The notes beneath the pieces were generated by a model that saw only the letters and a list, made by a program, of their open reading frames with translations, was not told where the DNA came from and did no database searches. From contig NZ_JAHQVB010000037.1 of the NCBI RefSeq assembly GCF_019052655.1, positions 1 through 20,142 on the forward strand: a DNA stretch of 20,142 bases, given 5' to 3'. The DNA is from Holdemanella porci (lineage in GTDB: Bacteria; Bacillota_I; Bacilli_A; Erysipelotrichales; Erysipelotrichaceae). The translations under genes were made by a program, and so were the position numbers. Position 1 is the first letter of the stretch. Each line of letters opens with the position of its first letter. Positions 1-17,867 of the stretch are shown here, in pieces.

Positions 1-792
1 GATGAAGTATGTGCTGGTGACCAAGGTATTATGTTTGGTTATGCATGTGATGAAAGTGATGAGTATATGCCATTAACAATCTACTATGCACACCTTTTAG
101 CTCGTCAATTGACAAAAGTCAGAAGACAACACCCAGATTTATTAAAACCAGATGGAAAAACACAGGTATCTGTTGAATATGAAAATGATGAAATTAAACG
201 TATCGATACAATCGTCGTTTCTACACAACATAGTGCCAATGTAACACAAGAAGAAATCAAAGAATTGATTATGAATGAGGTCATCAAACCTTGTATTGAT
301 GAAAAATATTTAGATGAAAATACAAAATATTTCATTAATCCATCTGGAAGCTTTGTCGTAGGTGGATCATGGGGAGATTCAGGAACTACAGGACGTAAAA
401 TCGTATGTGACACATATGGTGGACGTGGACGTATTGGAGGAGGATGCTTCTCTAGTAAAGACCCTACGAAAGTAGACCGTAGTGCTGCTTACTATTCTCG
501 TTATGTAGCTAAAAACATTGTTGCGAATGGATTAGCTCGTCGTTGTGAAGTTGAAGTAGCATACGCAATTGGTAAGGCACAACCAGTTTCATTATGTGTA
601 GATACTTTTGGGACAGGTAAATTTGATGATGAAAAACTATTAGAAATCGTTAAGAAAAACTTCAATTTTGAAGTAGGAAATATCATTTCAGAATTGGATT
701 TAAGAAAGCCAGTTTACCACAAAACATCATGCTATGGACATTTTGGTGATCCTCAATTTACTTGGGAAAAAGTAAAAAAAATAGTATGGTAA
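1..792 (+). CDS. metK: S-adenosylmethionine synthetase, 3' part (start lies outside the window)
   Basis: MetK makes SAM from methionine and ATP in the cytoplasm. The reading frame is open from base 1, and the first residues contain the hallmark [11 protein letters not shown] segment. Further on are the glycine-rich [13 protein letters not shown] loop and the [22 protein letters not shown] region (seen as GRGRIGGG and [12 protein letters not shown]), which form the active site, then the TSCYGHFG stretch near the end. Codon choice (more CGT, GCT, GTA) looks like a well-expressed housekeeping gene and differs from the AT-richer genes that follow. The protein stops soon after WEKVKKIVW; from memory of the family, MetK usually carries roughly a dozen more residues after WEKTDK, so the tail may have been replaced when the downstream DNA arrived. 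The stop overlaps the next gene. Identity is secure; the tail truncation is inference. Confidence 0.96.
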
Positions 793-1994
793 TTTCTAAA
801 AATAGATATGAAACCATTTCAAAACTTCAATTAATAAATGGAGAATATTCAATTTCACATACATCATGTGGGGAATATTTAAATGGGCTATATAAGGTTA
901 GATACCATGATTTGGAAGAAATTGAAAATCAATGTGTTTATGATATTAGTGTTTTAAAAAAAGTGAAACATGAAAATATAGAAATTGGACTAATTAAAAA
1001 GATATATGAACACTATAAAAAAATCTTTTTAAAATATAACATCAGCAACTATGAGATTGAAATTGTTGAGGTAGAAGGGTTTAAAGCTTTTCAAAATGAA
1101 AGAGAAACTTTGATAGAACCTATAAAAAGGTATTCGATTAATTTTTCAGTATATTCTTTAGTTAATACGTTAAACTATGAACGTGGTTTTGGTGGGACAA
1201 TTATAGATAAAATTTTAGATTTGGATAATCAAGTTGAAGAGTTAATCAAAGTTTCATTGACAAAAAGTTCGTACGTAAAAATAGATGGTTATTTTCCTGT
1301 GATTTTTGACAATGAAATGACGGGTTTGTTTGCACACGAAATAGTTGGTCATAATTTAGAAGCAGATATTTGGTATATGAATAAAAAATTGGATGAAAGA
1401 TTTAATCTCGGTGAAAAAGTATCTACATCAGCATTAAATATAGTTGATAATCCTTTGTTAAATACTGAATCTGGAACATATTTATTTGATGACGAAGGGA
1501 ATGCGCCACAATTAACGTACTTAATTAAAAATGGTGTAATAAATCATTTATTAACAAATGAAAAATATTCTAAATTATTTAATATTACAAACACAGGGAA
1601 TGCTAGATCGATATCTACATTTTATAAGCCTATTATTCGAATGAGTAATACATATGTAATGCAAGGGCAATCCGATGTAAAATTGTTATTTTCTTCAATA
1701 CCATATGGATTTTATTTTAAAGGTACAAGAAATAGCAAAGGTGGAATACATCCTTTTATTGAATCCAGAGAAGTATATTTAATAAAAGATGGTAAAATTG
1801 ATAGCTTATTAAATCCTATGAGCATAAGTGAAAATGCTCTATCTCTTTTAAAAAAAGTAAAAATGGTTGGTAATGATTTTGAAATATATGGTGGTGGTAA
1901 AGGAGGATGTGGAAAGTATAACCAGTTCCCTTTACCAGTTAGTTCAGGTGGACCGCATATATTATTAGAAGATGTTTTAATATATAACATATAA
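786..1994 (+). CDS. TldD-type zinc metalloprotease, RiPP cluster (peptidase U62 family)
   Basis: TldD proteins are the active zinc subunits of the TldD/TldE protease, which trims leader peptides (microcin B17 is the known case). Residues 184-189 read HEIVGH followed by LEAD, matching the HExxxH zinc motif and its LEGD-like continuation in TldD. The C-terminal [12 protein letters not shown] segment supplies the conserved Cys (about residue 375) expected as a further ligand. At about 402 residues it is shorter than typical TldD (about 480), mostly in the N-terminal domain. No TldE/PmbA partner is in the window, so it may act alone or as a homodimer. I chose ATG 786, which overlaps the metK stop (ATGGTAA); an upstream TTG at 762 is less likely. 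No good RBS is visible, so translation may be coupled to metK. Likely role: cutting the leader from the precursor at 3405. Confidence 0.85.
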
Positions 1995-2011
1995 AGAAAG
2001 CAAGGTATAGT

Positions 2012-3037
2012 ATGAAAGTATCAGAATTAGATTTTTTCTTGCCTAGTGAGTTATTGGCTAGAGAACCAAGAGAAACTAGAGGGGAAAGTAGAAGCGATTC
2101 AAAATTAATGGTTATGAACCGAAAAACACAAACTATTGAACATAAAAAGTTTAATGATGTAATTGATTATCTAGAAAAAGGAGATGTTCTTGTTTTAAAT
2201 AATAGCAAAGTTATTAACGCTAATCTAATAGGGTGGTTAGGATATAAAGAAAGAAAAATAAAAATTGATTTAGCTGGAATATTGGATAATGGAAATTGGC
2301 AAATATATATTGATGATAATGAAATAAATCCTGGAGATACATGTGAATTTGGTGATGGAATGTTAACGGGAACTTTTGAAAAGATGGAAGAAAATCATGT
2401 ATGGCAAATTAAATTTAATCAAGATAATGTCATTGAATTAGCCAATAAAATTGGGCGCCCAATTATGTCTCCATATGTAAAAAAGCAATATGATTTATCT
2501 TATTATCAGAATGTATATGCTTCAAAAGAAGGATCAGCAGAATTACCATCTGCAGGGCGTCATTTTACGAAAGAATTATTAGAAAAAATTAAGAAAAAAG
2601 GTGTAAGAGTAGTTTATGTTACTTTACATACAGGATTAAGCTCAATGATGGTAACAGAAGATACATTTGAAGAGCATCATATGCATAAAGAATATATTGA
2701 AATAACGAGCGCTGTTGCAAATACAATTAATGAAGCAAGAAAGAATGGGCATAGTATAGTTTGTGTTGGAACAACTGTGGTAAGGACTTTGGAAACCGTT
2801 GCTGATGAACAAGGAAATTTAAAACCGTTCACAGGATATAGTACATTATATATTTATCCGGGATATCATTTTAAGATAGTTGATAAATTTATAACAAACT
2901 TTCATGGGCCTAATACATCTAGAATTGCTATGGCAGCAGCATTTACAGGAAAAGATTTGCTTTTAAAGGGGTATGCAGAGGCTATTCAAAGAAAATATTT
3001 ATTTTATGAATTTGGTGACACTACATTAACGATTTAG
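2012..3037 (+). CDS. Divergent QueA-like SAM ribosyltransferase-isomerase homologue
   Basis: Canonical QueA moves the ribosyl part of SAM onto preQ1 in tRNA to make epoxyqueuosine. This 341-residue protein keeps the family length and framework: MKVSELDFFLP at the N-terminus, VLNNSKVI (about 61-68), EHHMHKEY (221-228), GTTVVRTLE (253-261), IYPGYHFKIVD (281-291) and a TNFH motif (295-298). Several of the most conserved QueA segments are altered: PTAGLHF has become PSAGRHF (179-185), the LHVGxGTF stretch reads LHTGLSSM (205-212), and NFHLPxST reads NFHGPNTS (296-303). It sits 17 bases after the TldD gene and ahead of a PqqD-like gene, with no other queuosine genes nearby. I infer a paralogue that keeps SAM binding but acts on the peptide or another small molecule rather than tRNA. 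It could still be a diverged true QueA. Start at ATG 2012, with AAGG upstream. Confidence 0.85.
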   Translation: MKVSELDFFLPSELLAREPRETRGESRSDSKLMVMNRKTQTIEHKKFNDVIDYLEKGDVLVLNNSKVINANLIGWLGYKERKIKIDLAGILDNGNWQIYIDDNEINPGDTCEFGDGMLTGTFEKMEENHVWQIKFNQDNVIELANKIGRPIMSPYVKKQYDLSYYQNVYASKEGSAELPSAGRHFTKELLEKIKKKGVRVVYVTLHTGLSSMMVTEDTFEEHHMHKEYIEITSAVANTINEARKNGHSIVCVGTTVVRTLETVADEQGNLKPFTGYSTLYIYPGYHFKIVDKFITNFHGPNTSRIAMAAAFTGKDLLLKGYAEAIQRKYLFYEFGDTTLTI

Positions 3038-3055
3038 TAGAAAGAGAGTTTTATA

Positions 3056-3331
3056 ATGGAACGATTTTTTGTGCAAAAAGATGATGTTATGACTTTTCCA
3101 ATTGAAAATGGAGAAGCATTACATAATTTAATAAATGATGAGTATTTTAGTTTAGAGGAAGGATTATCCACGATGATTTGGGATTCTTTGGATGGGAGTA
3201 TTAGTGTTGAAGGTATTATTGATATGATTTCTGATCAATATCAAATGGATAAATCGATTGTTGAAAAGGATACAAAAGATTTTATTAATAATTTATTTGA
3301 AAACGGATTGATAGAACAAATAGATAAATGA
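3056..3331 (+). CDS. PqqD-like RiPP precursor recognition protein
   Basis: This is a stand-alone protein of 91 residues with the size and pattern of PqqD-family RiPP recognition elements, which hold the leader peptide and present it to modifying enzymes such as radical SAM proteins. The visible signature is an LNDEYFSLEEGLSTMIWDSL-type core (here DEYFSLEEG, then MIWDSLDGSISVEGII), followed by a helix and a C-terminal segment, DFINNLFENGLIEQI, that matches the family's final LxxLxxxGLIE helix. A GAAAGAGAG RBS precedes ATG 3056. The gene lies directly before the small precursor gene, the usual place for such a protein. It most likely partners with the radical SAM enzyme at 8018-9107, and perhaps also with the QueA-like protein. 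The family assignment rests on motif reading, not a search. Confidence 0.85.
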   Translation: MERFFVQKDDVMTFPIENGEALHNLINDEYFSLEEGLSTMIWDSLDGSISVEGIIDMISDQYQMDKSIVEKDTKDFINNLFENGLIEQIDK

Positions 3332-3339
3332 TGGTAATT

Positions 3340-3378
3340 ACTGTGTACAGTGATTATAGATGATGTTAACAGTACTGT
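3340..3378. promoter_or_regulatory. Two related palindromes upstream of the precursor gene
   Basis: Between the PqqD-like stop and the precursor RBS are two palindromes that share half-sites: ACTGTGTACAGT (3340-3351) and ACAGTACTGT (3369-3378). Flanking ATTAC and GTAAT also pair, so the whole stretch could fold as RNA. It could be a tandem operator for a dimeric regulator or an mRNA structure that protects or controls the precursor message. No convincing -35/-10 pair was found nearby. Confidence 0.4.
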
Positions 3379-3404
3379 AATAACAAATGAAAGGCGGTGA
3401 AATC

Positions 3405-3497
3405 ATGAAACAGGAATACAAAAGACCTGAAGTCAAAAAAATTGACTTAGTAGCTGATTTAAACGGATTGGCTTTATCTTGTGGATCAAAGATTTAA
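3405..3497 (+). CDS. Probable RiPP precursor peptide (30 residues)
   Basis: This short gene has an excellent RBS (GAAAGGCGGTGA, ending 4 bases before the ATG). The product starts MKQEYKRPEVKKIDL, continues through VADLNG, and ends LALSCGSKI. The charged N-terminal half with a Y-x-x-P-x-V pattern followed by an acidic/hydrophobic stretch resembles leaders of many Firmicutes and Bacteroidetes peptide substrates. The last residues (Ser25, Cys26, Gly27, Ser28, Lys29) would be the modified core. It lies between the recognition-protein gene and the glycosyltransferase gene, and a hairpin follows its stop. Ser and Cys are natural sites for glycosylation or thioether chemistry. That it is the substrate of the locus is inferred from size, position and composition; the gene itself is well supported by RBS and terminator. 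It is too short for ordinary ORF cutoffs. Confidence 0.8.
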   Translation: MKQEYKRPEVKKIDLVADLNGLALSCGSKI

Positions 3498-3513
3498 TAA
3501 AACTATTTATTGG

Positions 3514-3545
3514 AAATGAGTCTTATTAGTCAATAAGGCTCATTT
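3514..3545 (+). terminator. Hairpin after the precursor gene (partial terminator)
   Basis: AAATGAG-T-CTTATT pairs with AATAAG-G-CTCATTT around a 4-base loop (14 pairs including one T-G wobble), starting 16 bases after the precursor stop. The following tract, ATTATATATG, is only partly T-rich, so read-through is likely. This would give much more precursor mRNA than mRNA for the downstream enzymes, as is common in peptide clusters. Confidence 0.75.
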
Positions 3546-3577
3546 ATTATATATGTAATATATTGGAGGTTGATTCA

Positions 3578-4738
3578 ATGAATATATTAGTGATTTCTGC
3601 AGAGTATCCACCATTTTCAGTAGGGGGGATAGCGTTGCATACACATGAAGTGAACAAATCGCTTGTAAAAGAAGGTAATGTTATTTGGACATTAACGTTT
3701 CATGGAGATAGAAATGCAGATAGTATTAATACAACAGTAGAGGATGGTATTAATGTGATAAGAATTCCAAGACCATCATCTACAATAAATGAGTCATATG
3801 AAGATAAATTTATAAATCAAAATGAGCAAATGAAAATTGGAATACATTATTTGATGGATCATATATTTTGTGATTTTAATATGGTTGTTTTACATGGATA
3901 TTTTTTAGGAATATGTGGAATGTACGCATGCGAAAAAATGTCAATTCCATTTGTATATCATGCACATACGCTTTTATCAGACGCTCAACTACATGACAAT
4001 GTTAAAATCTCAGAGACTGAAAGGGAATTATATAGCAAAGCTACGTACGTAATCGCAGTAAGTGGATTTTTAAAAACTGAAATATTAAAAAGATATTCAA
4101 TTGACACTCGAAGAATAAAAGTAATTACAAAAGGTGTTGAACTAAAAAAATATGATAAATATGAAAATAAAACTAATGATACGTATTTTAAAATATTATA
4201 TACAGGGCGAATATCTAGAGAAAAAGGATTTGAAACATTATTAAATGCAATTAGTTTGTCAGTAAAAAAACATAAAAATATTTTGGTTTTCGCTGTAGGG
4301 TTATTTTCCGATGAAGTTTATAGAAAAGAAATTATTGCAATGATAAGAGATAAAGGGTTGCAAAAAAATATAGTATTTTTAGGTTTTAAAGAAGATGACA
4401 AAGTCATACGAGAATATAAAAGTTCGAATATATCCGTCGTTCCAAGCTTTGCTGAAACATTTGGTAAGGTTGCCATTGAATCTATGGCAGCCAGAGTTCC
4501 CGTTATTGTGGCAAATATTGGTGGATTGGGACCAATAGTAAAAGATGGTGAAACTGGATTGAAATTTAAATGTGGAGATGAAGAAGATTTATCAAATAAA
4601 ATTAATCTATTGTATGAATATCCATGTTTATGTAAAAAAATAGCTGATAGTGCATATATGGAAGTTGTTAAAAAGTATCAATGGAAAGATATATTTAAAC
4701 TAACATTAGATATTTATCAAAAAGTTTGTGAGGTGTAA
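3578..4738 (+). CDS. GT4-family glycosyltransferase
   Basis: This is a retaining GT-B glycosyltransferase of about 386 residues that transfers a sugar from a nucleotide sugar. The N-terminal domain begins MNILVISAEYPPFSVGGIALH, with the GG loop seen in GT4 enzymes. The C-terminal domain shows ILYTGRISREKGFETLL and then SFAETFGKVAIESMA, the EX7E donor-binding motif (about Glu293 and Glu301), followed by a GGLGPIVKDGETG loop. No membrane segments are evident. The start is ATG 3578 with TTGGAGG upstream; the in-frame TTG at 3563 is inside the RBS. The gene ends 4 bases before the PIG-L deacetylase start, a pairing known from MshA/MshB (mycothiol) and BshA/BshB (bacillithiol). I infer that it adds an N-acetylated sugar to the peptide or a pathway intermediate, which the next enzyme then deacetylates. 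Confidence 0.9.
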   Translation: MNILVISAEYPPFSVGGIALHTHEVNKSLVKEGNVIWTLTFHGDRNADSINTTVEDGINVIRIPRPSSTINESYEDKFINQNEQMKIGIHYLMDHIFCDFNMVVLHGYFLGICGMYACEKMSIPFVYHAHTLLSDAQLHDNVKISETERELYSKATYVIAVSGFLKTEILKRYSIDTRRIKVITKGVELKKYDKYENKTNDTYFKILYTGRISREKGFETLLNAISLSVKKHKNILVFAVGLFSDEVYRKEIIAMIRDKGLQKNIVFLGFKEDDKVIREYKSSNISVVPSFAETFGKVAIESMAARVPVIVANIGGLGPIVKDGETGLKFKCGDEEDLSNKINLLYEYPCLCKKIADSAYMEVVKKYQWKDIFKLTLDIYQKVCEV

Positions 4739-4742
4739 TAAA

Positions 4743-5423
4743 ATGATAGAAGTAATGGCGGTTGCACCACACCCAGATGATGTAGAATTTGGGTGTGGAG
4801 GAATATTGTTTAAATTGAATAAAGAACAGTACCATATCACTGTGTTATGTAATACTTGTTTTGATATAGTAGATTGTACAGATCAATCTCAAAAAAGGAT
4901 TAGATTGGAAGAACAAAGGGAAGCCTGTGAAGTGTTTAATGCAGATTGTATTTTTTTTGATGCATATAAAAATTTAGATAATATATCAGATATTTTGAGA
5001 AAATTAAAACCAAATTTCATTTTTCTTCCATGGGAGAATGATTTTAATCCTACACATATGCATGTAACTAGTATAATAAAAAAATCAATATTTGAAGCAC
5101 AAAACAATTCAAAATATTACTCAGGATGGATGGTTAATCAATTGGCATATTATGAAACGTTTTCTTCTATTAATTTTAAATCAGAATTTAATGTTGACGT
5201 ATCCGATGTTTTCTCACAAGCATTAATGATATTAAAAAAGCACAAGTACGGATTAAAAAAATTACCTTCGTTATTATATAAATACAAAATAAATCATCAA
5301 AAAAGAGGCATAGAATGTTCAACATTTTATGCAGAAGGTATTATATTTGATAAAACATTTTGGATGGGATGGAAACAAAATTCCTTATTGGGAATTGACC
5401 TTTTATATAGTATGTATAGGTGA
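4743..5423 (+). CDS. PIG-L-type zinc deacetylase (LmbE/BshB-like)
   Basis: PIG-L enzymes remove the acetyl group from N-acetylglucosamine conjugates. Residues 9-20 read PHPDDVEFGCGG, the invariant zinc/active-site motif near the N-terminus. A later DFNPTHMHVTS segment supplies the second metal-binding His region. At 226 residues the length is normal for the family. ATG 4743 follows a GAGGTG RBS that overlaps the end of the glycosyltransferase gene. Coupling to a GT4 enzyme suggests that the pair installs a free amino sugar (such as glucosamine) on the cluster product. The C-terminal half (about 150-226) is not recognisable to me and may shape a pocket for a peptide acceptor. The family assignment is secure; the substrate is inference. 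Confidence 0.88.
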   Translation: MIEVMAVAPHPDDVEFGCGGILFKLNKEQYHITVLCNTCFDIVDCTDQSQKRIRLEEQREACEVFNADCIFFDAYKNLDNISDILRKLKPNFIFLPWENDFNPTHMHVTSIIKKSIFEAQNNSKYYSGWMVNQLAYYETFSSINFKSEFNVDVSDVFSQALMILKKHKYGLKKLPSLLYKYKINHQKRGIECSTFYAEGIIFDKTFWMGWKQNSLLGIDLLYSMYR

Positions 5424-5429
5424 TGATTG

Positions 5430-6419
5430 ATGGAAAACATTATAGAAATTATGAATGTACGGAAAATATACCGCACATATCAGAAAAAGAGTGGGTTAAA
5501 AAATATAATTAAAAATATTATTTATCCTGACTTTAAGGATTTTATAGCTGTGGACGATATGAGTTTTTTTATACGTAAAGGTGATATTGTTGGCTATATT
5601 GGACCAAATGGTGCCGGAAAAAGTACCACAATAAAAATGTTAACAGGAATCTTGATGCCAAATAGTGGAATGATTAAAGTGTTTGGAAAAGATCCTTTAG
5701 AGTACAGAAAGGAAAACTCTAAACATATTGGGGTTGTTTTTGGTCAGAAGAGTCAGCTTTGGTGGGATATTCCAGCTATAGAAAGCTTAGAACTGTTAAA
5801 AGGGATTTATAAAGTTCCAGATTGTGATTTTAAAGATAGAGTAGAAAAATATGCTGATATGCTGCAGGTAAAAGAATTCTTGAATTTACCAGTAAGACAG
5901 ATGAGTTTGGGGCAAAGAATGAAGTGTGATTTAATTGCAGCATTGATACATGATCCATCCATATTGTTTTTAGATGAACCAACTATTGGTTTGGATGTGG
6001 CAACAAAGGATAGGTTAAGAGAATTTATTTTGGAGTTAAATAGAACAAAGAAGGTAACTGTATTTTTGACAACACATGATATGCAGGATGTGGAAAAATT
6101 ATGTAATCGAGTAATTTTAATCAATCATGGGCGAATGTTATATGATGGGGATTTAGAGAGTGTAAAAGAAAAATATATACGATATCGGAATTTAAAAGTT
6201 GTATTTAATAAGACGTATTCTATTGATGAACTAAAGTTTTTAAAAGATTTTCAAGATCTTCGTATACAAAATTTAGATGATAAAACTATGCTGATTCAAT
6301 ACAATTACAAACTTTATTCGGTTACAGATATTGTGAGTTGCTTATTAAAAAATACAGAGGTTGCAGACTTTTCAATCAAGGACCTAGAAATAGAAGATGT
6401 AATTAAAGAGGTATGTTAA
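5430..6419 (+). CDS. ABC-2 type exporter ATP-binding protein
   Basis: This is the cytoplasmic ATPase of an export ABC system, 329 residues from ATG 5430 (RBS AGGTGATG). It shows Walker A GPNGAGKST, a Q-loop at VVFGQKSQLWW, the signature MSLGQRMKCDLIAALIHDP, Walker B SILFLDEPTIGLD and the H-loop TTHDMQDVEKLC, so it is a complete, active-looking NBD. An N-terminal extension (YQKKSGLKNIIKNIIYPDFKDF) before the core, plus a C-terminal tail, resembles the NodI/DrrA-like ATPases that pair with two DUF990 permeases. The two permease genes follow immediately. The likely job is export of the finished modified peptide, or self-protection. The downstream radical SAM gene suggests that the transporter lies within, not beside, the biosynthetic operon. 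Confidence 0.93.
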   Translation: MENIIEIMNVRKIYRTYQKKSGLKNIIKNIIYPDFKDFIAVDDMSFFIRKGDIVGYIGPNGAGKSTTIKMLTGILMPNSGMIKVFGKDPLEYRKENSKHIGVVFGQKSQLWWDIPAIESLELLKGIYKVPDCDFKDRVEKYADMLQVKEFLNLPVRQMSLGQRMKCDLIAALIHDPSILFLDEPTIGLDVATKDRLREFILELNRTKKVTVFLTTHDMQDVEKLCNRVILINHGRMLYDGDLESVKEKYIRYRNLKVVFNKTYSIDELKFLKDFQDLRIQNLDDKTMLIQYNYKLYSVTDIVSCLLKNTEVADFSIKDLEIEDVIKEVC

Positions 6420-6420
6420 T

Positions 6421-7206
6421 ATGTATCGTGTTTTATGTGCTTATTTAAAACAACAATATTCATCTTTAACAGCTTATAAATCTGCTTTTTGCATGACATT
6501 AGTCAATGTGTTTATACGAATCTATGCCTATGCAATGTTATGGATGACATTATATAAGCAGAATGCTTCTTTGTTTGGAAATATTGATCTAAATCAAATG
6601 CTGCTTTATAGTATATTTTCAATTTCTTTATCACAGGCATTTACTTGGTGGGATGGTCCACATATTTATGTGGAAGAAAATATAAAAAATGGAAGAATTA
6701 TATGTGATTTACTCAAGCCAATGGAATTAAAAACACAATTGTTTTTGAGAACTCTTTCTTCAACGGTGGTTAATCTTTGCATTTTCACAATTCCTTCCTT
6801 TTTAATATCAACTTGTTTTTTTAAACTAGAGCTAAATGTGAATATAATTGGAGCTTTAATTACTTTCGTGCTTGGCTTTTTATTGTTGTTCTCAATGAAT
6901 TATATTTTATCTTTAATTTGTTTTTTAAGTCTTGATCTAGAAGGATATCTCTATATTTTTCATGCTCTGATTGCATTTTGTTCAGGACAAGTGGTTCCTT
7001 TATGGTTTTATCCGGATTTTCTTTTGGGAATAATAAACTGGTTACCTTTTAAATATGTATTTTACGAGCCATTGCTTCTTTTTATTCGAAATGGCAATCT
7101 CTGTCAAACCGTTTGTTTTCAAGTGATTTGGATTTTTATATTATCTTTGATTGGACGCTTTATGTGGAAATGCGTATCGAAGAAAATCGTTGTACAAGGA
7201 GGTTAG
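6421..7206 (+). CDS. ABC-2 permease (DUF990-like), first subunit
   Basis: This 261-residue integral membrane protein has about six hydrophobic segments: around residues 20-45, 55-75, 110-135, 140-165, 170-195 and 230-250. It carries the KSAFCMTLVNVFIRIYAY start and the central NGRIICDLLKPME motif typical of the ABC2_membrane_6 (DUF990) family, in which a short N(G)xI..LLxP loop follows the second helix. It begins 1 base after the ATPase stop, so translation is probably coupled. It should pair with the next permease to form the channel driven by the ATPase at 5430-6419. The substrate is not readable from sequence. Confidence 0.88.
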   Translation: MYRVLCAYLKQQYSSLTAYKSAFCMTLVNVFIRIYAYAMLWMTLYKQNASLFGNIDLNQMLLYSIFSISLSQAFTWWDGPHIYVEENIKNGRIICDLLKPMELKTQLFLRTLSSTVVNLCIFTIPSFLISTCFFKLELNVNIIGALITFVLGFLLLFSMNYILSLICFLSLDLEGYLYIFHALIAFCSGQVVPLWFYPDFLLGIINWLPFKYVFYEPLLLFIRNGNLCQTVCFQVIWIFILSLIGRFMWKCVSKKIVVQGG

Positions 7207-7209
7207 GGT

Positions 7210-8001
7210 ATGGAAAGTATTCAACTATATTTTGATCTAATAAAAGCAGGCTTAAAACGATTTGCTGAATATCGTTCAAGTTTTATTGCAGGATTCTTCG
7301 GACTTATCATGATCAACGGTTCTTCTATTCTCTTGATCTGGGTCATGTTGAAAAACTTTCATACACTAAATGAATGGACTTTTTGGCAGATAGTTTTTAA
7401 TTATTGTTTATTCTTATCTTGTTTAGGATTTCATAATACTTTTTTTAGACATATTAGTGATTTAGAGAATCATATTGTGAATGGAACATTTGACCGATTC
7501 CTATTAAGACCGGTGAGCCCTCTTTTACAATTAGCATCTGAAAAAATTAGTATTACAGATTTATGTGATTTCACAACGGGAATGATTGGAGCTTTATTTG
7601 CGGCAAAAATGTTACATATCCAAATTACAGTTGGTTTTATGCTTGGATTTATACTCTCAATTATAAATGGAGTGTATGTATTTACCGCAATTCTTTTTTC
7701 AGTGAGCTGTATATCTTTTTGGACCATGAAATCAAAATCTATTTTATATAGTACAAATGAAATACAGGAAAGTGTACAACACTATCCAATAAGTATATTT
7801 AATAAAGCATTTAAGTTTATTGTTACGGTACTATTACCGTATGGTTTGGTAAATTATTATCCATCTTTAATTCTGTTAAATAAAGTGAATGTGCATTGGG
7901 TGTATGTCATTATGATTGCTTTAGTCGACATGATTTATGGTGTGATAGGAGCCTTTTTATGGCGAAGAGGACTGAAAAGATATAATGGTTCAGGTTCTTA
8001 G
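7210..8001 (+). CDS. ABC-2 permease (DUF990-like), second subunit
   Basis: This is a 263-residue membrane protein with the same layout as its upstream neighbour: about six hydrophobic segments, and NHIVNGTFDRFLLRPVSPL after the second helix, the matching DUF990 loop. It starts 3 bases after the previous stop, with AAGGAGG immediately upstream as a strong RBS. The two permeases are diverged paralogues, as is usual for these ATPase + two-permease cassettes, and most likely form a heterodimeric channel. The radical SAM gene starts 16 bases downstream, so all four genes appear to share a transcript. Confidence 0.88.
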   Translation: MESIQLYFDLIKAGLKRFAEYRSSFIAGFFGLIMINGSSILLIWVMLKNFHTLNEWTFWQIVFNYCLFLSCLGFHNTFFRHISDLENHIVNGTFDRFLLRPVSPLLQLASEKISITDLCDFTTGMIGALFAAKMLHIQITVGFMLGFILSIINGVYVFTAILFSVSCISFWTMKSKSILYSTNEIQESVQHYPISIFNKAFKFIVTVLLPYGLVNYYPSLILLNKVNVHWVYVIMIALVDMIYGVIGAFLWRRGLKRYNGSGS

Positions 8002-8017
8002 AAAGTAGGTGATGAAT

Positions 8018-9107
8018 ATGGATGATAGACTAAATCATGAACAAAAAATGTTTTCAAAAACAAATTGGGAATTTACCAAGAAAATTGTGGAAGGAAATTT
8101 TGAATCTCAAGTTAGTCCTATATTAACTTTAGATGTTTCTAAAAAATGCAATTTTCGTTGTAACCATTGTGTTGACCAAGAAACAGTAAATAAAGATAAT
8201 CTTGAAATAGATTGGGGAATTTTAAAACAACTATTAGTTGATTTGAAAATGCAAGGATGTAGTTGTGTTGAGTTAACAGGTGGAGGAGAACCTACTACAT
8301 ATACTCATTTTAAAGATTTGATCAAGTTACTATCATTACTTCAGTACAGAATAGCATTAATATCAAATGGGAGTAACTTACATAAATATTGTGATGATAT
8401 TATAAATGCACCTTTTGATTGGATTAGAATTAGTTTGGATTCTTCAAACGCACATACACATTCAGTCGTTCATGGATGTGGTTTAAATGTATTTAAATCT
8501 ATAACGGATTCTGTAAAGAAAATTGCTAAATATAAAACTGTTGGAATTAGCTTTTTAATTCTTCCAAACAATTATAAAGAAATATATAATTGTGCAAAAT
8601 ATGTAAAAGAATTAAATGTAAAATATATAGAGGTAAAGCCTGAACTTAATTTTAAAGATAAAGAAATTACTCAGATTGATGATAAAATAAAAGAAGAAAT
8701 AAAAAAAACAAATTAATAAAATTAAAAATGAATTGTGTGATGATACATTTTCTATTATTTATCCTTCATCAATCAACTATTCCCAAATGAATCAAGAAAA
8801 AAAGTACACAATATGTGAAGCATGTTATTATAGAACTGTATTAACACCCAGTGGCATTTATCCTTGTTCATATTTTAGAGGATTGACTGACGGCACAGAA
8901 ATTCCTACTAGTTGGGAAAATATGGTCAAAATAAGAAATAGCGAGATTAATAAAATTAATCCATCCAAACAATGCAAACATTTTTGTGCCAGAAATAAAA
9001 TTAATGAATGTATTAATATACTTTGTAGAATAAAAAAATATGCACCAGAATTTATAGATTATCTGGGATGGCCGATAGATTATGGCAATGACATAGAATG
9101 GATGTAA
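8018..9107 (+). pseudogene. Radical SAM/SPASM peptide-modifying enzyme, split by a frameshift at an A8 run
   Basis: Two adjacent frames together encode one radical SAM/SPASM enzyme of about 362 residues. The first frame (8018-8716) has the [4Fe-4S] motif CNFRCNHC (Cys44, 48, 51), the ELTGGGEP SAM-binding motif and ISLDSSNAHTH. The second (through 9107) carries the SPASM cysteines: CEACYYRTVLTPSGIYPCSYFRG-type core, then CKHFCARN and CINILC. The frame changes at eight A residues (8701-8708). Removing one A joins IKEEIKK to QINKIKNELCDDTF with no gap, and the second part has no RBS of its own (only a TTG at 8733). The gene may be inactivated, phase-variable, rescued by polymerase slippage on the A-run, or a sequencing error. 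ATG 8018 follows AAGTAGGTGA. SPASM enzymes modify peptides, so this is the expected core-tailoring enzyme for the precursor at 3405. Confidence 0.85.
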
Positions 9108-9922: not shown

Positions 9923-11368
9923 ATGGCAAAAGACACTATATTTTCGGGAGAATCGAAAAATATTGAATATAAAGTTACTTTACCAGATAAAAGTGAAAAA
10001 TACATGAAGACAATCGTAGCTTTTGCCAATACACAAGGTGGTAAGCTGATTGTTGGAGTGGATGATAAAACACATCAAATTGTTGGTGTTGAAAATGATG
10101 TGTTGTTTCAATTGATGGATGGAATTGCTAATGCAGTTTCTGATTCCTGTGTGCCTCAGATTATTCCTGATATTGAGCCACAGACAGTAGATGGCAAAAC
10201 AGTTGTTGTTGTATCTGTAGAAGCGGGGAAAAACAGACCGTATTATCTGAAATCAAAGGGAAAAGACAATGGTACTTATATACGTGTGGCAGGTACATCA
10301 AGACTGGCATTTCCGGAGAAGATAAAAGAGCTGGAAATGGAAGGTGCTAGAATCTCATGGGATGAACTTACCTGTGTAGGTTATCCTGTTTCAAAAGATG
10401 CTACGGAGAAGCTTTGTCAGGATATTGAAAGGTTCCGAAAAAAAGCAGGAATGCCGAATCATTCTGTAAATAAAGAACAACTTATAAATTGGAAAATCTT
10501 AAAGCAGAGTGAGGGACAACTTCTGGCAACAAATGCTTATGCATTGTTGACATCAGATTATTTTTCGTTTTCAAAAACGCAATGTGCGGTGTTCAAAGGA
10601 ACAGATCGTGCGGTATTCTTGGATAAGAGAGAACTTAAAGGACCGATTTATACACAAATCGAAGAAGCTGTAGATTTTGTATTGAGAAACATTCGACTCG
10701 GAGCAACAATCGACGGATTGGTGCGAAAAGAGAGATATGAGCTACCACCGGAAGCAATCAGAGAAATGATCATTAATGCCCATTGTCATCGTAACCTGTT
10801 GGATGAATCTTGTATTCAGGTTGCAATTTATGATGACAGGTTGGAAGTGACATCGCCGGGAGGCTTATATAACGGATTGACTTATGAGGAAGTCATGAAT
10901 GGTCATTCGAAAATTCGTAATAAAGGCATTGCCAATATATTTAGCCAAATGGGACTTGTTGAGGCATGGGGAAGTGGAATAAAAAGAATTTTGAACGCTG
11001 CTGAAGAGTATGGACTTCCGAAACCTAGATTTCAGGAGTTCGATAATATGTTTCGTGTAGAATTATTCCGTAATTTATTTCCGATGATGGAAGAAAGCAG
11101 AGACATCGGAGAAGCATCGGAGAAACATCGGAGAAGCATCGGAGAAGTATCGGGAATAGAACAACAAATAGAACTTAACGATACGCAGAAAAAGATTATT
11201 AAACTGCTTTTGGAAGATAATCAATTATCGGCTATTAAACTGGCTGATAGAATAGGTATTGCCAGTCGAAATATAGAAAGTAATATTAAGAAATTAAAAG
11301 AGCTTGGTATTCTTATACGACATGGATCGCCGAAAAATGGTTATTGGGAAGTTACTTTGACATATTAA
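9923..11368 (+). CDS. AlbA_2 (Schlafen-like)/HATPase_c_4 ATP-binding protein with winged-helix tail
   Basis: Proteins of this family (often labelled putative RecG-like transcriptional regulator or DNA-binding protein) join an N-terminal AlbA_2 domain (about 1-130: ESKNIEYKVTLP, then AFANTQGGKLIVGVDD) to a GHKL-type ATPase region (about 270-385: AIREMIINAHCHRNL, then DDRLEVTSPGGLYNGL and GIANIFSQMGLVEAWGSGI) and a C-terminal winged helix (about 420-481). Members often sit in defence or mobile islands; the biochemical role is not settled. RBS TAGGAGTG precedes ATG 9923. Its base composition is visibly richer in G+C than its neighbours, suggesting recent transfer. An 11-bp tandem repeat at 11104-11153, in the linker before the winged helix, could switch the frame. 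No partner gene remains except the remnant just upstream. Confidence 0.88.
   Translation: MAKDTIFSGESKNIEYKVTLPDKSEKYMKTIVAFANTQGGKLIVGVDDKTHQIVGVENDVLFQLMDGIANAVSDSCVPQIIPDIEPQTVDGKTVVVVSVEAGKNRPYYLKSKGKDNGTYIRVAGTSRLAFPEKIKELEMEGARISWDELTCVGYPVSKDATEKLCQDIERFRKKAGMPNHSVNKEQLINWKILKQSEGQLLATNAYALLTSDYFSFSKTQCAVFKGTDRAVFLDKRELKGPIYTQIEEAVDFVLRNIRLGATIDGLVRKERYELPPEAIREMIINAHCHRNLLDESCIQVAIYDDRLEVTSPGGLYNGLTYEEVMNGHSKIRNKGIANIFSQMGLVEAWGSGIKRILNAAEEYGLPKPRFQEFDNMFRVELFRNLFPMMEESRDIGEASEKHRRSIGEVSGIEQQIELNDTQKKIIKLLLEDNQLSAIKLADRIGIASRNIESNIKKLKELGILIRHGSPKNGYWEVTLTY
11104..11153 (+). repeat. 11-bp tandem repeat inside the AlbA-family gene
   Basis: Four copies of CATCGGAGAAG (third base-11 variant A in copy 2) run from 11104 to 11147, followed by a partial TATCGG. 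Because 11 is not a multiple of 3, adding or losing one unit shifts the frame and would remove the winged-helix domain. In the current frame it encodes an IGEASEKHRRS-type linker with an 11-residue period. Confidence 0.85.
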
Positions 11369-11461
11369 TCTCAAAATAATGGAAGTGGAAGAGTACTTAA
11401 ATAGTAGCTTTTAAAAGAGAATACATGTGAAATAATTTAAACCATATTTAGATTTGCTTGT

Positions 11462-11494
11462 AGGTATCTAGCTGCTACCAAAATGATACCAATA
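11462..11494 (+). repeat. Att-like repeat, copy 2 (pairs with 13464-13485 and 19624-19641)
   Basis: Positions 11473-11494 are identical over 22 bases to 13464-13485. Positions 11462-11479 (AGGTATCTAGCTGCTACC) match 19624-19641 at 17 of 18 bases. The core is CCAAAATGA, as in the other sites of the set. Confidence 0.75.
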
Positions 11495-11618
11495 GAAATA
11501 GTTAAGATATATAATACATGTTAATTGTATATAAATAGTGTAATTTGCGTATATATAGTAAACAATAATGTTTATGTTACAACTTTCTTTTCCGAGTTCG
11601 AATAATTCAATAAACATC

Positions 11619-11645
11619 AAAAGTCCTTTATATAAGGGCTTTTTT
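11619..11645. terminator. Palindromic terminator left of the AbiE cassette
   Basis: AAAAGTCCTT and AAGGGCTTTT pair (one T-G wobble) around a TATAT loop and run into TTTTTT. It resembles the hairpin at 13417-13444 in both stem and CCTTATATAAGG centre, so the two probably share an origin. The A-run before the stem makes it usable on both strands. Confidence 0.7.
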
Positions 11646-11663
11646 GTATACTGTTTTTGGCCG

Positions 11664-11700
11664 TGAGTACAAAATGAACACATAAATTATTGAATATGAA
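11664..11700 (+). repeat. Att-like repeat, copy 3 (degenerate)
   Basis: TGAGTACAAAATGAACACAT followed by ATTGAAT aligns with the right half of the 9408 repeat (TGACTCCAAAATGAGTACAC, then ATTGAAT). It lacks the upstream TGTACTCA pair. It lies between the palindromic terminator and the AbiE promoter. Confidence 0.5.
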
Positions 11701-11722
11701 TAATTAAATAAATTGAAGTCAA

Positions 11723-11767
11723 TTTACATTCTTACTAATATAAAGTATAATATTAGCAAGAATGTAA
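11723..11767 (+). promoter_or_regulatory. AbiE operon promoter embedded in a 44-bp palindromic operator
   Basis: A -35 TTTACA (11723-11728) and a -10 TATAAT (11746-11751) are 17 bases apart. The promoter is nested in an inverted repeat: TTACATTCTT (11724-11733) with AAGAATGTAA (11758-11767), and CTAATAT (11735-11741) with ATATTAG (11750-11756). AbiEi antitoxins are known to repress their own promoter through inverted repeats, so this is the expected binding site. Confidence 0.85.
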
Positions 11768-11781
11768 AAGGTGGTGAGAGT

Positions 11782-12360
11782 ATGGAAGGAGTAATGGATT
11801 CTAAAAAAATTGAGGTTTTGAATGTTAAAGAATTAAAGAATGTGAATGTATCGAGACAGTCTATTTATAATTTTATAAAAAGGAATTGTATGGAAAAAGT
11901 TGGCCCAGGTATTTATATTTCAAAAGATGTGTTGGAAGATGAAGCTTATGTTTTGTCACAGCGTTGTCCAAAAGGAGTTATTTCTCATGATGATGCCTTA
12001 TATTATTATGGTCTGGTTGATCGAGAACCTTTTGTGCATTGTATTACAATTTATAGTGGATATAATCCTTCTGCTTTAACAAACTCTGGTTATAAGGTTT
12101 ATACAGTGAAAAAGGAACTTTTAGATTTAGGAAAGACTACAATCACAAATCAATTTGGTCATGAAATCCCAATGTATGATTTGGAAAGAACAATCTGTGA
12201 TTTAGTGAGAAGTAGACGTAATTTCGAAATTCAGGATTTTAATATGGCGATTAAAACTTATTTACAAAGAAGTGATAAGGATCTTAATCGTTTAATGGTG
12301 TATGCAAAAGCATTTCGAATTGAAAAGATAATTAGACAATATATGGAGGTTTTATTGTAA
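11782..12360 (+). CDS. abiEi: AbiEi-family antitoxin (type IV toxin-antitoxin)
   Basis: AbiEi proteins neutralise the AbiEii nucleotidyltransferase toxin without forming a stable complex and repress the operon. This 192-residue protein has an N-terminal winged-helix portion (SRQSIYNFIKRNCMEKVGPG, then IYISKDV) and the family's CPKGVISHDDALYYYGL segment, followed by a C-terminal half with YDLERTICDLVRSRRN. The start is ATG 11782 behind AAAGGTGGTGA; an ATG four codons later also has a GGAAGGA. The stop overlaps the toxin start (TAATG), giving tight coupling that fits antitoxin-before-toxin order. It could act as an abortive-infection defence or as a stability module for the surrounding mobile DNA. 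Confidence 0.9.
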   Translation: MEGVMDSKKIEVLNVKELKNVNVSRQSIYNFIKRNCMEKVGPGIYISKDVLEDEAYVLSQRCPKGVISHDDALYYYGLVDREPFVHCITIYSGYNPSALTNSGYKVYTVKKELLDLGKTTITNQFGHEIPMYDLERTICDLVRSRRNFEIQDFNMAIKTYLQRSDKDLNRLMVYAKAFRIEKIIRQYMEVLL

Positions 12361-13208
12361 TGTATCTAACTCCAGCACAAATAAAAGGTAGAATTAAAAA
12401 TGTTGCCAAACAAAATGGATCGGATCCTATAACTTTGTTACGTATTTATATGATGGAGCGTTTTCTTGAAAGAATAACGTATTCTAAATATAAAGACGAT
12501 TTCATTGTTAAGGGTGGAATCTTGGTTACTTCTATGATTGGTATATCGATGCGATCGACTATGGATATTGATACAACAATACGTAATTTTGATTTAACCA
12601 AAGAAGAAACCACAAGGATTGTAAATGAAATTAAAGATATTTCTCTTGATGATCACATTGAATTTATCTTAAATGATGTATCTGATATCATGGACAATAT
12701 GGAGTATCCAGGAATAAGAATTCATATGGATGCAAAATTAGAAAATTTAATAGTACCAATCAAAATAGATATATCAACAGGTGATGTGATTACACCTAGA
12801 GAAGTAAGATATGAATATCCGTTGTTGTTAGAAGACAAATCAATACAACTGTGGTCATATAATTTAGAGACAATACTTGCAGAAAAAATTCAAACAATTC
12901 TTTCTAGAGGATTGTTGAATACACGTATGCGTGATTTTTATGATGTAACGACTTTATTTGATCGTTATAACGATTCAATAAACTATAATGATTTATCATT
13001 GGCATTTGATAAAACATGTAGAAAAAGAGAGACACTTTCTGTATTAGAGCATTATGAAGAAATATTATGCTCAATAAGTGAAGATTCAACATTGCAGAAT
13101 TTATGGAAGAATTATTGTCGCAAATATAAATATGCGAGTCATATTGAGTTTTCTACAAATTTAGAAATAATAAAACAATTGATGAGTCAAATGTTAGAAA
13201 TTGAGTGA
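12360..13208 (+). CDS. abiEii: AbiEii-family nucleotidyltransferase toxin
   Basis: AbiEii toxins are polymerase-beta-like nucleotidyltransferases; related enzymes act on tRNA acceptor ends and stop growth. In this 282-residue protein the nucleotidyltransferase core is FIVKGGILVTSMIG (Gly52-Gly53), then MRSTMDIDTTI with catalytic aspartates Asp69 and Asp71. A later conserved block, LETILAEKIQTILSRGLL then TRMRDFYDV (about 175-200), matches the family's EKI..R..RDFYDL region. All expected motifs are present, so the toxin looks intact. Its ATG shares a base with the antitoxin stop. There is no separate promoter, so it depends on the autoregulated one at 11723. The flanking repeats suggest that the pair moved as a unit. 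Confidence 0.9.
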   Translation: MYLTPAQIKGRIKNVAKQNGSDPITLLRIYMMERFLERITYSKYKDDFIVKGGILVTSMIGISMRSTMDIDTTIRNFDLTKEETTRIVNEIKDISLDDHIEFILNDVSDIMDNMEYPGIRIHMDAKLENLIVPIKIDISTGDVITPREVRYEYPLLLEDKSIQLWSYNLETILAEKIQTILSRGLLNTRMRDFYDVTTLFDRYNDSINYNDLSLAFDKTCRKRETLSVLEHYEEILCSISEDSTLQNLWKNYCRKYKYASHIEFSTNLEIIKQLMSQMLEIE

Positions 13209-13248
13209 AACAATATTTTAATTGTATGTATTGTTAGAATGAAATGGT

Positions 13249-13290
13249 TTGTACTCAATGTGTACTCACAGTGACTCCAAAATGAGTACA
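13249..13290 (+). repeat. Att-like repeat, copy 4 (pairs with 9408-9449)
   Basis: These 42 bases are identical to 9408-9449 except for one G/A change, and lie in the same orientation. The pair brackets the AlbA gene and the AbiE operon. Similarity fades immediately downstream. Confidence 0.8.
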
Positions 13291-13416
13291 TAATATACAT
13301 AAATGATTTGGAATATAAAATAATACAGGAAGTAATTGTGTAAATGACCATATAATGTATATGTTGCATGGATTTAAAAGTACACAAAATTGAGTTTGAG
13401 TAGAGATAAAATGAAT

Positions 13417-13444
13417 AAAAAGTTCCTTATATAAGGCACTTTTT
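13417..13444. terminator. Palindromic terminator right of the AbiE cassette
   Basis: AAAAAGT pairs with ACTTTTT, enclosing a CCTTATATAAGG palindrome, with one T-C mismatch. It closely resembles 11619-11645. It could terminate both AbiE transcription and minus-strand transcription from regulator A. Confidence 0.7.
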
Positions 13445-13463
13445 ATTCGGTTATAGGCTATTT

Positions 13464-13485
13464 TGCTACCAAAATGATACCAATA
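13464..13485 (+). repeat. Att-like repeat, copy 5 (identical to 11473-11494)
   Basis: A 22-base exact direct repeat of 11473-11494, again with the CCAAAATGA core. It lies just outside the palindromic terminator, mirroring the nesting on the left side of the AbiE cassette. Confidence 0.8.
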
Positions 13486-13583
13486 ATATAGAGAGCATGT
13501 TCCCGATGAGAAATTGAATGTGTATTTTATATCTAATATTATTATTAGTTTGATAAATAATTACTCGTTCGATTTCCGCTTTT

Positions 13584-14846
13584 TCAAATTGGCAACATAT
13601 CACTGGTTGAATCTAAATATGTTTTCAAGTCTTTATAACGCTTGGTTTGTTCGACAAGCATACTTAGTTCTTCATAAAAGAATTGTTTATATTTCCCCAT
13701 AGTATTATCGATTATAATGGGTACTTTATTCACTATAAAATAGGATAGTTCATCATTGTCGGTTTGATATTTATATTTCAAAATGAAGTAGTTCAAAAGA
13801 TTTTCGTATTGGCTATCACCTTTGTATACTTCTTTGGATTGTATAAAGGATTTAAGTTGATTGATTTTATTTGTCTTTTGATAAGAAATGCATAAATCGA
13901 TACCTACAATATTCGCATAAGGTGAATCCATAGCTATATATTGTTCAAAATAATTTATGGCTATATCGTACATATCAATTCTAAAGGCTTGTAGACCGAT
14001 ATTTTTTAGAAGTTGAGATGTTTTAATTTTAGGTATGTTTGAATTGTGTGCTTCTACTGTATGATTTATTTGAGAAACTAATTTTTCAAATTTTTCTTTT
14101 TCTGTATTTGAAAAGGCAAATCCTTTTAGAGAATAAATGTCGAGAAGACGAATGTAATTGTTTTTAATGGAATATTCCTCTTCTAAATCTTGACAATAAT
14201 CAAGCATTTCAGACAATTTGGATTGATTATATAAAATCATCATATGGTTTCCACGATTAATCATGCTGTTTGAATTTTTAAAATCAAAGTAGGAAAAATC
14301 ATAAATACCACTAATTGTTCGTTTCTTAAAAACTAGATCCATCATGACTTCATAGAGGTTAGAATTGATAATGTTTTTTAGGGAAATAATATATTCAGTG
14401 CTTTGAAGAGTCGGAAGTTCAAATGAGGAATAATAGGTGTAGATCCATTTGAAACACTCGTAGTATTCATGAAAGAAAATGTATTCTTTGAATGGATTTA
14501 ATTGTTTTACATAGGATTCAGAGATGGATATAAGCTTTTCTAAATTATAATAATCGCAAGCATTTAATAAATCAGAAAAAATGGAAGTTGGCAGGAATTC
14601 TTCAATACAATAATCCGTATTAAATTTTAGATTCACCTTTTTTAGTAATTCTTCATAAATAGAATCGTTTTTAATAATAACACCCTGTTCTATTTTACTA
14701 AGTGTTTGTCGAGTGCATATTGGCTCATTATACTCATTTAACAAAAAAGAATTTTGTGATAGATGTTTAAATTGTTGAGTTCGATATACATGGATTAGAT
14801 ATCCAATTTTCTTCTTATCGGAATCATTGATCTTTAAATAATGCAT
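13584..14846 (-). CDS. Regulator A: HTH/TPR transcriptional regulator (Rgg/PlcR-like)
   Basis: About 420 residues. An N-terminal helix-turn-helix (about 10-65, including CTRQTLSKIEQGVIIKNDSI) is followed by an all-helical, TPR-like region to the end (for example AINYFEQYIAMDSPYANIV and DICIS-type repeats, ending RYKDLKTYLDSTSDMLPI). This layout is that of Rgg/PlcR/MutR regulators, which usually bind short signalling peptides through the TPR domain. The HTH is longer than canonical, with an insert NSFLLNEYNEPI between the helices. ATG at 14846 follows GTGAGG; the upstream in-frame GTG at 14858 is inside the RBS. It is divergent from exporter A, with a perfect 12-bp inverted repeat between them, so control of that gene and of itself is likely. 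No signalling-peptide gene was found. Confidence 0.85.
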   Translation of the reverse strand: MHYLKINDSDKKKIGYLIHVYRTQQFKHLSQNSFLLNEYNEPICTRQTLSKIEQGVIIKNDSIYEELLKKVNLKFNTDYCIEEFLPTSIFSDLLNACDYYNLEKLISISESYVKQLNPFKEYIFFHEYYECFKWIYTYYSSFELPTLQSTEYIISLKNIINSNLYEVMMDLVFKKRTISGIYDFSYFDFKNSNSMINRGNHMMILYNQSKLSEMLDYCQDLEEEYSIKNNYIRLLDIYSLKGFAFSNTEKEKFEKLVSQINHTVEAHNSNIPKIKTSQLLKNIGLQAFRIDMYDIAINYFEQYIAMDSPYANIVGIDLCISYQKTNKINQLKSFIQSKEVYKGDSQYENLLNYFILKYKYQTDNDELSYFIVNKVPIIIDNTMGKYKQFFYEELSMLVEQTKRYKDLKTYLDSTSDMLPI

Positions 14847-14874
14847 AGTATTCCTCACTTCATAATTTACTTAA

Positions 14875-14931
14875 TTTTAACATTTTTTATATTTGCGTAG
14901 AAGAATCAATTGTTGAAATAAAATGTTAAAA
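14875..14931. promoter_or_regulatory. Perfect 12-bp inverted repeat between regulator A and exporter A
   Basis: TTTTAACATTTT (14875-14886) and AAAATGTTAAAA (14920-14931) are exact inverted copies 33 bases apart in the divergent intergenic region. Downstream is a -10 TATACT (14959-14964) without a fitting -35, which suits an activator-dependent promoter. The probable binder is regulator A. Confidence 0.65.
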
Positions 14932-14991
14932 AAGAAAGATAACGGGATGTGATAGGTATATACTATTAAACTAAGTAGGGGATGGAAGAGA

Positions 14992-17826: not shown

Positions 17827-17867
17827 TATTAGTTTTGTGCAAGATCACACGATAAATTGAACTTAAT

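Follow-up and report, generated by a model that had tools for sequence, protein, structure and literature searches.

QueA is the tRNA preQ1(34) S-adenosylmethionine (SAM) ribosyltransferase-isomerase. The available text of PMC10491745 treats the transfer of the ribosyl group of SAM in connection with this enzyme and queuosine synthesis; the proposed route has a vinyl sulfonium capturing the substrate amine and closing to an epoxide while adenine and methionine leave, and the way in which tRNA and SAM are bound is described as unknown. We analysed a stretch of 20,142 nucleotides from Holdemanella porci (contig NZ_JAHQVB010000037.1, assembly GCF_019052655.1; the window), in which a gene for a QueA-like protein, here QueA-R, is followed by genes for a PqqD-type protein and a short peptide. 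QueA-R resembles tRNA QueA in its fold and in 36 shared alignment columns but belongs to a separate clade, has changed motifs and has PqqD rather than tgt as its neighbour. We consider it probable that the locus is the biosynthetic cluster of an undescribed class of ribosomally synthesised and post-translationally modified peptide (RiPP), in a Holdemanella-like gut bacterium, that uses a QueA-derived SAM-ribosyl transferase.

Other described systems share parts of the gene set. Lasso peptide clusters have a PqqD-type stand-alone RiPP recognition element (RRE) and a [Y/W]xxPx[LVIFA] leader, as here, but Pfam scans of the 19 window open reading frames (ORFs) given found no asparagine-synthetase-like cyclase or B2 protease. 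Linear polyphosphorylated peptides, as presented in the available text of PMC13381572, are similar in their stand-alone RRE, YxxP leader and origin in Bacillota, but they use an SpI-like peptidase, an HprK-like kinase and a nucleoside triphosphate transferase, which were unseen in the window scans; QueA and queuosine have 0 occurrences in the main text of that paper. The routes to mycothiol (MshA/MshB) and bacillithiol (BshA/BshB) have a family 4 glycosyltransferase (GT4) followed by a PIG-L de-N-acetylase. The window has the same pair but also a gene-encoded peptide, an RRE and a radical SAM enzyme, and its equivalog scores were far under the cut-offs (MshA 110.5 against 462.5, BshA 81.8 against 273.7, BshB1 71.0 against 182.5). 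The mycofactocin and pyrroloquinoline quinone (PQQ) pathways combine a PqqD-type protein, a radical SAM/SPASM enzyme and a peptide precursor, as does the window, which adds QueA-R and PIG-L and has no match at the level of MftC or PqqE. The PqqD equivalog scored 23.1 against a cut-off of 46, and the radical SAM half of the window protein scored 33.7 for PqqE (cut-off 381.35) and 36.3 for MftC (265); an intact counterpart from Candidatus Stoquefichus (locus L001, described below) was below the same cut-offs with 39.7 and 37.9. TldD/E, the microcin-processing protease, has the fold and the HExxxH motif of the window protease, which differs in being a single gene with a divergent N-terminal part inside a cluster.

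The sequence-only reading did not recognise this gene set as a described class, and the literature agreed as far as titles and abstracts go: no RiPP pathway with QueA or queuosine was found among those searched, in a literature mostly without subscription journals. Nothing in the literature searched joined QueA with TldD and PqqD or placed thymidylate synthase with PqqD in a RiPP setting, and PIG-L itself was absent from the RiPP papers listed as matching PIG-L queries (10 of 584 in one listing). QueA, queuosine, thymidylate, TldD and PIG-L are all absent from the main text of PMC12710340. For RiPP gene clusters in Holdemanella the literature searched gave two surveys.

The cluster lies on the plus strand. 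A TldD-type protease, QueA-R, the RRE, a 30-residue peptide, GT4, PIG-L and an ABC exporter occupy positions 786-8001, and a radical SAM/SPASM gene, split into two ORFs, lies downstream of the exporter on the same strand and ends at 9107. The sequence-only reading had named all of these except the exporter, and Pfam bore out its families and coordinates; it had overlooked the exporter (5430-8001) and the break in the radical SAM frame. The TldD-type metalloprotease (402 residues, 786-1994; PF19289, 5.5e-44) belongs to a subfamily whose N-terminal part is divergent. Its HExxxH and GGGxGGC motifs were invariant in 12 of 12 alignment rows and its model (pLDDT 85.6) matched E. coli TldD/E (5nj5 chain A) with a TMq of 0.78 at 20% identity. 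We presume that it is the leader peptidase; no second PmbA/TldD gene that could serve as a TldE partner was present among the window ORFs scanned with Pfam, and one may lie elsewhere in the genome. The GT4 (3578-4738; PF00534, 2.4e-36) and PIG-L/LmbE-type (4743-5423; PF02585, 1e-13) genes both start with ATG, and their products are 37% and 38% identical to the Stoquefichus counterparts. The best solved relative of the PIG-L protein was N-acetylglucosaminyl-malate deacetylase 6p2t (3.6e-10). Between the PIG-L and radical SAM genes sits the exporter trio, made up of an ATPase (5430-6419; PF00005, 6.5e-26), 34% identical to the ATPase of a Geobacillus plasmid cluster, and two ABC-2 permeases of the ABC2_membrane_6 family (6421-7206 and 7210-8001; PF06182, 2.3e-17 and 2e-42).

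We compared QueA-R (341 residues, 2012-3037; PF02547, 2.7e-99) with its relatives in a FastTree tree of 151 sequences, including 81 of housekeeping type (two or three of the motifs AGLHFT, HVGLGTF and NFHLP) and 69 of R type (none of these). All 81 housekeeping-type sequences formed one clade (support 1.0, branch 0.62), with 0 of the 69 R-type sequences inside it. The window protein is outside this clade and has AGRHFT, HTGLSS and NFHG in place of the housekeeping motifs. Substitutions that set the two groups apart completely or almost completely included A177E, L183R, G210S, L304R, S333E and M338T. The 36 shared columns, in which each group is at least 95% identical, include H184, H206, N296 and H298; because invariant histidines are common to both groups, similar SAM-ribosyl chemistry is plausible, and substitutions like L183R and L304R point to a different acceptor. 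An AlphaFold model of QueA-R built from a 28-row alignment (pLDDT 94.3) gave four Foldseek matches at E <= 0.001, to QueA of T. maritima and B. subtilis and to T. thermophilus TT0907 (1vky, 1yy3, 1wdi). QueA was present in 90 of the 118 genomes searched, and only the Stoquefichus genome (G001) had two full copies, one housekeeping (465 bits) and one in the cluster (300.6 bits); G008 had two fragments. Of 30 housekeeping loci, each about 4 kb long, 29 had a tgt motif and none a detectable PqqD. QueA-R is a family apart from housekeeping QueA, occurring in PqqD-bearing gene runs.

The precursor gene (3405-3497) encodes the 30-residue peptide MKQEYKRPEVKKIDLVADLNGLALSCGSKI, with a YxxPx[V/L] leader and a Cys close to the C-terminus. 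It was the single match in the window to a rule for small ORFs (18-80 codons, YxxP within the first 15 residues, a Shine-Dalgarno-like sequence); the same rule gave 2 ORFs in the 30 housekeeping queA loci (116,347 bases). The stand-alone RRE (91 residues, 3056-3331; PF05402, 3.3e-9) had lasso_PqqD_Bac as its top NCBIfam match, at 39.6 bits against a cut-off of 80. YKRPEV of the window peptide fits [Y/W]xxPx[LVIFA], which is given as the leader motif for discrete RREs in the available text of PMC13381572. All 5 of the peptides found at these loci (window, Stoquefichus, two from Geobacillus and one from S. salivarius pSaLI10) fit this motif, and the RRE is predicted to bind the YxxPxV leader.

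A terminator-like RNA hairpin of 14 pairs (3514-3545) lies directly 3' of the peptide gene, and a hairpin was found at this place in 5 of 5 cases (window, L001, two at L146, one at L148), with unrelated stems. One script gave folding z-scores of -2.46 to -6.6 across the five, the window value of -2.46 applying to a longer stretch; a second folding tool put the window at -3.37 and L001 at -4.79. Same-length stretches of the clusters that folded as well or better numbered 7 of 404 in the window, 8 of 571 in L001 and 6 of 618 for Geobacillus A; the remaining two hairpins had no equal among 616 and 330 stretches. Since 1.0-1.7% of same-length stretches fold equally well in the first three, the hairpins are not unique in strength. 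They may act as partial terminators, or as a stabiliser, raising precursor levels.

Two short patterns taken from the TldD alignment were run against a collection of species genomes, which gave 57 stretches and six loci. One of them, L001 of Candidatus Stoquefichus, keeps the set apart from the exporter at 36-52% identity (QueA 50%, PqqD 36%, TldD 36%), with an intact radical SAM/SPASM protein of 364 residues. Its peptide, MIKYSKPELFKISLMNNIDGLALACGSSCC, occupies the same place and is 52% identical to that of the window over 25 residues. The neighbourhood is thus conserved, as the sequence-only reading had supposed: all seven gene types that it named, peptide included, are kept at this distant locus. 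The other five TldD loci lack the set, with a weak radical SAM relative near two and an ABC ATPase match in one. Linkage was also followed through the exact sizes of the longest contigs in three separate protein searches, comparing the best 13 of 120 TldD rows, the best 28 of 110 radical SAM rows and the best 68 of 120 QueA rows. Among these best rows, 14 exact contig sizes of at least 4 kb were common to different marker types. None was shared with the 52 QueA rows ranked below, although 31 of these had contigs of at least 4 kb; 50 of the 52 are of housekeeping type and two, P0309 and P0336, of R type. The upper 68 include three fragments outside the tree, one housekeeping-type protein (P0288) and one that fits neither rule (P0294).

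Against 315 genomes of the Stoquefichus order, the TldD alignment gave a strong match in G001 only (5e-148); the next-best genome, G182 (4e-61), had no other cluster gene in its 4-kb locus. The radical SAM protein was found in 1 of 395 genomes of the class, G001 itself, and QueA-R in 2 of 392 genomes of the phylum, G001 and G333. We rejected G333 because its motifs and its tgt/ruvB neighbours mark it as housekeeping. In the order of Anoxybacillus, a set with no known positive, 0 of 397 genomes had QueA-R. A viral or phage origin was also rejected, with no TldD relative found and 77 IMG/VR radical SAM loci lacking any other query gene at 1e-6. The radical SAM protein matched a Streptomyces plasmid at 24.8% identity; among the query genes outside the radical SAM and ABC types, only the SPASM part was matched on that plasmid.

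QueA-R also occurs in a related type of cluster on plasmids. On pGeo12a of Geobacillus thermodenitrificans (L146:13701-26314) QueA-R is followed by a peptide gene and PqqD, then by a thymidylate-synthase-like protein, a phosphotransferase, NUDIX, a second PqqD, a second YxxP peptide, CYTH and ABC genes. The first of these peptides begins with MVYTTPKLL and ends with three KCR-containing repeats. A related set is found in S. salivarius on pSaLI10 and pSAL813 (L148:7995-17029), where some 2.9 kb separate PqqD from the QueA gene; the peptide was sought in pSaLI10 only, and the pSaLI10 QueA has only NFHG of the R motifs. The Geobacillus and S. salivarius clusters have in common QueA-R, PqqD, the thymidylate-synthase-like protein, CYTH, a small AAA protein, ABC genes and YxxP peptides. 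A third arrangement, on S. meliloti pRmeGR4a (L163:6989-13438) and, by ORF reading, on an IMG/VR contig (L150:9893-15959), joins QueA-like, PqqD-like, radical SAM/SPASM, B12 radical SAM and diaminopimelate-decarboxylase-like genes. Here no plausible YxxP peptide was found, QueA carries AGLHFT, and the PqqD-like matches are just below the Pfam cut-off (20.8 and 23.3 against 23.4). In the plasmid search some QueA match was seen in 32 Rhizobium and 6 Sinorhizobium records, of which one, pRmeGR4a, was opened.

The Stoquefichus locus holds further genes. Inside the cluster, L001:10325-11362 encodes an AlkZ-like DNA glycosylase (PF06224, 4.8e-15) with a QxQ motif and no NCBIfam match; its sole PDB match at E <= 0.01 was AlkZ 5uuj (1.2e-6), with QAQ aligned to QAQ. 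According to the available text of PMC9040887, AlkZ-like genes in biosynthetic clusters serve largely in self-resistance against genotoxins, as with AlkZ of azinomycin B, and a self-resistance role is possible in L001; the likeness belongs to the L001 protein and is absent from the window. The core is flanked (L001:1999-4690 and 11377-13701) by an ORF resembling an acyl carrier protein (ACP; no Pfam match), a BtrH-like gene (30 bits, cut-off 29.7) and genes for an adenylation protein, an ACP and a phosphopantetheinyl transferase (PPTase), together with a second radical SAM maturase nearest to nif11/SCIFF types. BtrH acylates an amine on an aminoglycoside. The Stoquefichus adenylation protein, ACP, PPTase and BtrH-like protein could likewise acylate a sugar amine, and the extra genes, the AlkZ-like one included, suggest that this branch alone makes a DNA-reactive product.

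The gene set suggests the following pathway. The PqqD-type RRE would bind the YxxPxV leader and present the short Cys-containing C-terminus (GLALSCGSKI), which the radical SAM/SPASM enzyme would modify. GT4 would attach an N-acetylated sugar, from which PIG-L would remove the acetyl group to leave a free amine; mycothiol and bacillithiol synthesis proceed in the same way. QueA-R, by the chemistry of QueA on tRNA, would then move the ribosyl group of SAM to an amine of this intermediate and isomerise it to an epoxycyclopentane-diol. In the window type of cluster the natural acceptor would be the GlcN-type amine made by GT4 and PIG-L. Finally the TldD-type protease would remove the leader and the ABC exporter would secrete the product. 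Leader binding by the RRE, sugar transfer, deacetylation, leader cleavage and export are roles that we infer from the protein families; that QueA-R has retained SAM-ribosyl chemistry, and on which group it acts, is proposed with less certainty. The sequence-only reading had suggested an amino sugar on a Ser/Cys peptide with an added SAM-ribosyl transfer, which agrees both with the enzymes encoded here and with the additional genes in Stoquefichus. A bolder version, which we think rather improbable, is that RRE-guided peptide pathways took up the QueA lineage on two or more occasions to install a SAM-derived epoxycyclopentane on a peptide or glycopeptide amine, and that the Stoquefichus product would alkylate DNA through its epoxide with AlkZ-type self-protection.

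Several points weigh against the proposed RiPP class. Product, expression and binding are predicted from the genes, the whole neighbourhood was read at one locus and the other linkage comes from contig sizes. The three R motifs are incompletely kept in the R-type set (all three in 31 of 69 sequences, two in 23, one in 14, none in 1), and the QueA-R model matched the QueA crystal structures with modest scores (TMq 0.57-0.60, root-mean-square deviation 8-10 Å). Cys is absent from 2 of the 5 peptides. The window exporter trio gave no match in L001, and there is no obvious self-resistance gene within the window. The broken radical SAM frame and the TIGR00113 score, both given below, also count against the class. 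GT4 and PIG-L were not matched in the Geobacillus and Streptococcus clusters; a sugar amine therefore cannot be the acceptor throughout, and in these plasmid types that role must fall to the peptide or a different amine. A Tumebacillus genome (G660) has two QueA genes, one of them housekeeping; the second (L152:9213-10220) has 0 of 3 housekeeping motifs and is divergent R-like, with HTGLS and AGRAFS. In its 20-kb stretch (about 10 kb on each side) there was no PqqD or other query gene, so the QueA-R family is not always in such clusters. This counts against a strict link between R-type QueA and PqqD and leaves the window's own evidence unaffected.

The Tumebacillus gene also bears on the idea that the QueA-like gene is a horizontally acquired tRNA enzyme, placed beside a RiPP cluster by chance. 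The retained QueA fold would agree with this, and TIGR00113 calls the window protein tRNA QueA (280.3 against a cut-off of 267.45). However, the separate clade is fully supported and marked by changes such as A177E, L183R, G210S and L304R, QueA-R and PqqD occur together in gene runs of both the window and the plasmid type, a more distant QueA-like gene lies beside a PqqD-like one in the third arrangement, and Stoquefichus has its own housekeeping QueA, a type whose loci showed PqqD in 0 of 30 cases and a tgt motif in 29. We disfavour chance neighbourhood and regard it as highly improbable. The peptide could instead be a consumed scaffold: a small-molecule product, be it a thiol, a redox factor or a warhead, would be assembled on one or a few of its residues and excised, and no peptide would be secreted. 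PqqD, radical SAM/SPASM and a protease are also the logic of PQQ and mycofactocin, TldD/E cleaves unfolded peptides widely, GT4 and PIG-L resemble mycothiol and bacillithiol synthesis, and the core is short. This is unlikely in our view: the PqqD, PqqE and MftC cut-offs of NCBIfam were not reached, an ABC exporter is embedded in the window cluster, and the Stoquefichus adenylation domain, ACP and BtrH-like gene point to further decoration.

A cluster type that is genuine, as we propose, could still have an inactive or phase-variable copy in the window, a possibility that we take seriously while leaning against it. In this copy the radical SAM gene is out of frame: the radical SAM half (8009-8716; PF04055, 1.7e-14) stops prematurely in an A-rich stretch close to position 8,700 (break within 8690-8740), and the SPASM-like half (8733-9107), in another frame and without a Pfam match on its own, was recognised by its similarity to the C-terminal parts of the L001 protein and P0129. 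P0129, an intact 362-residue protein of Holdemanella porci, is 99.6% and 99.2% identical to the two window pieces. The intact L001 protein is 50% identical to the radical SAM half and, in its C-terminal part, 38% to the SPASM half, and the Cys columns of the SPASM part are invariant (alignment A2). P0140 (232 residues) has the same truncated length as the radical SAM half. Both lengths are common, with 104 members in the truncated P0140 cluster and 132 in the intact P0129 cluster, counted at 90% identity with members that may differ in length. The variants P0129/window and P0138/P0140 were each found both in frame and broken (P0138, 284 residues, is incomplete yet reads past the break); two variants in both states suggest repeated switching or slippage, and phase variation or slippage is a plausible cause of the break. 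On the other side, transcriptional slippage on the A run could give some full-length protein, and a homopolymer read or assembly error is possible for single contigs.

If the proposed class is real, diversion of the QueA family to peptides would put SAM to a new enzymatic use, and proteins annotated as tRNA QueA (e.g. P0247) would need correcting. The R motifs and a YxxP peptide could be used to mine a class that the literature searched did not return, and the AlkZ-like neighbour turns a genotoxic gut metabolite into a testable question.

Upstream, metK (SAM synthetase; 1-792, plus strand, its 5' end cut by the window; PF02773, 1.5e-63; PF02772, 3.6e-46) overlaps tldD by 7 bases. In two relatives (G212 and G213) the metK DNA is about 92-94% identical to the window and the protein 97%; homology to both stops at window 793/794, with different genes downstream in each, so the cluster is read as an insertion at the metK 3' end. 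We rejected metK as a SAM-supplying cluster member, as in G212 and G213 it precedes other genes; it is, on this comparison, an ordinary chromosomal gene at the left boundary of the cluster, with which it is possibly co-transcribed. With the window and two relatives all differing downstream, the metK 3' end (780-800) resembles a variable insertion site. Beyond the cluster, window 9923-13208 encodes a Schlafen/AlbA_2 protein, an AbiEii toxin and its AbiEi-like partner. The following region (13584-19578) encodes a 424-residue minus-strand protein with no Pfam match, a helix-turn-helix/tetratricopeptide-repeat regulator and two ABC transporters in which membrane and ATPase domains are fused.

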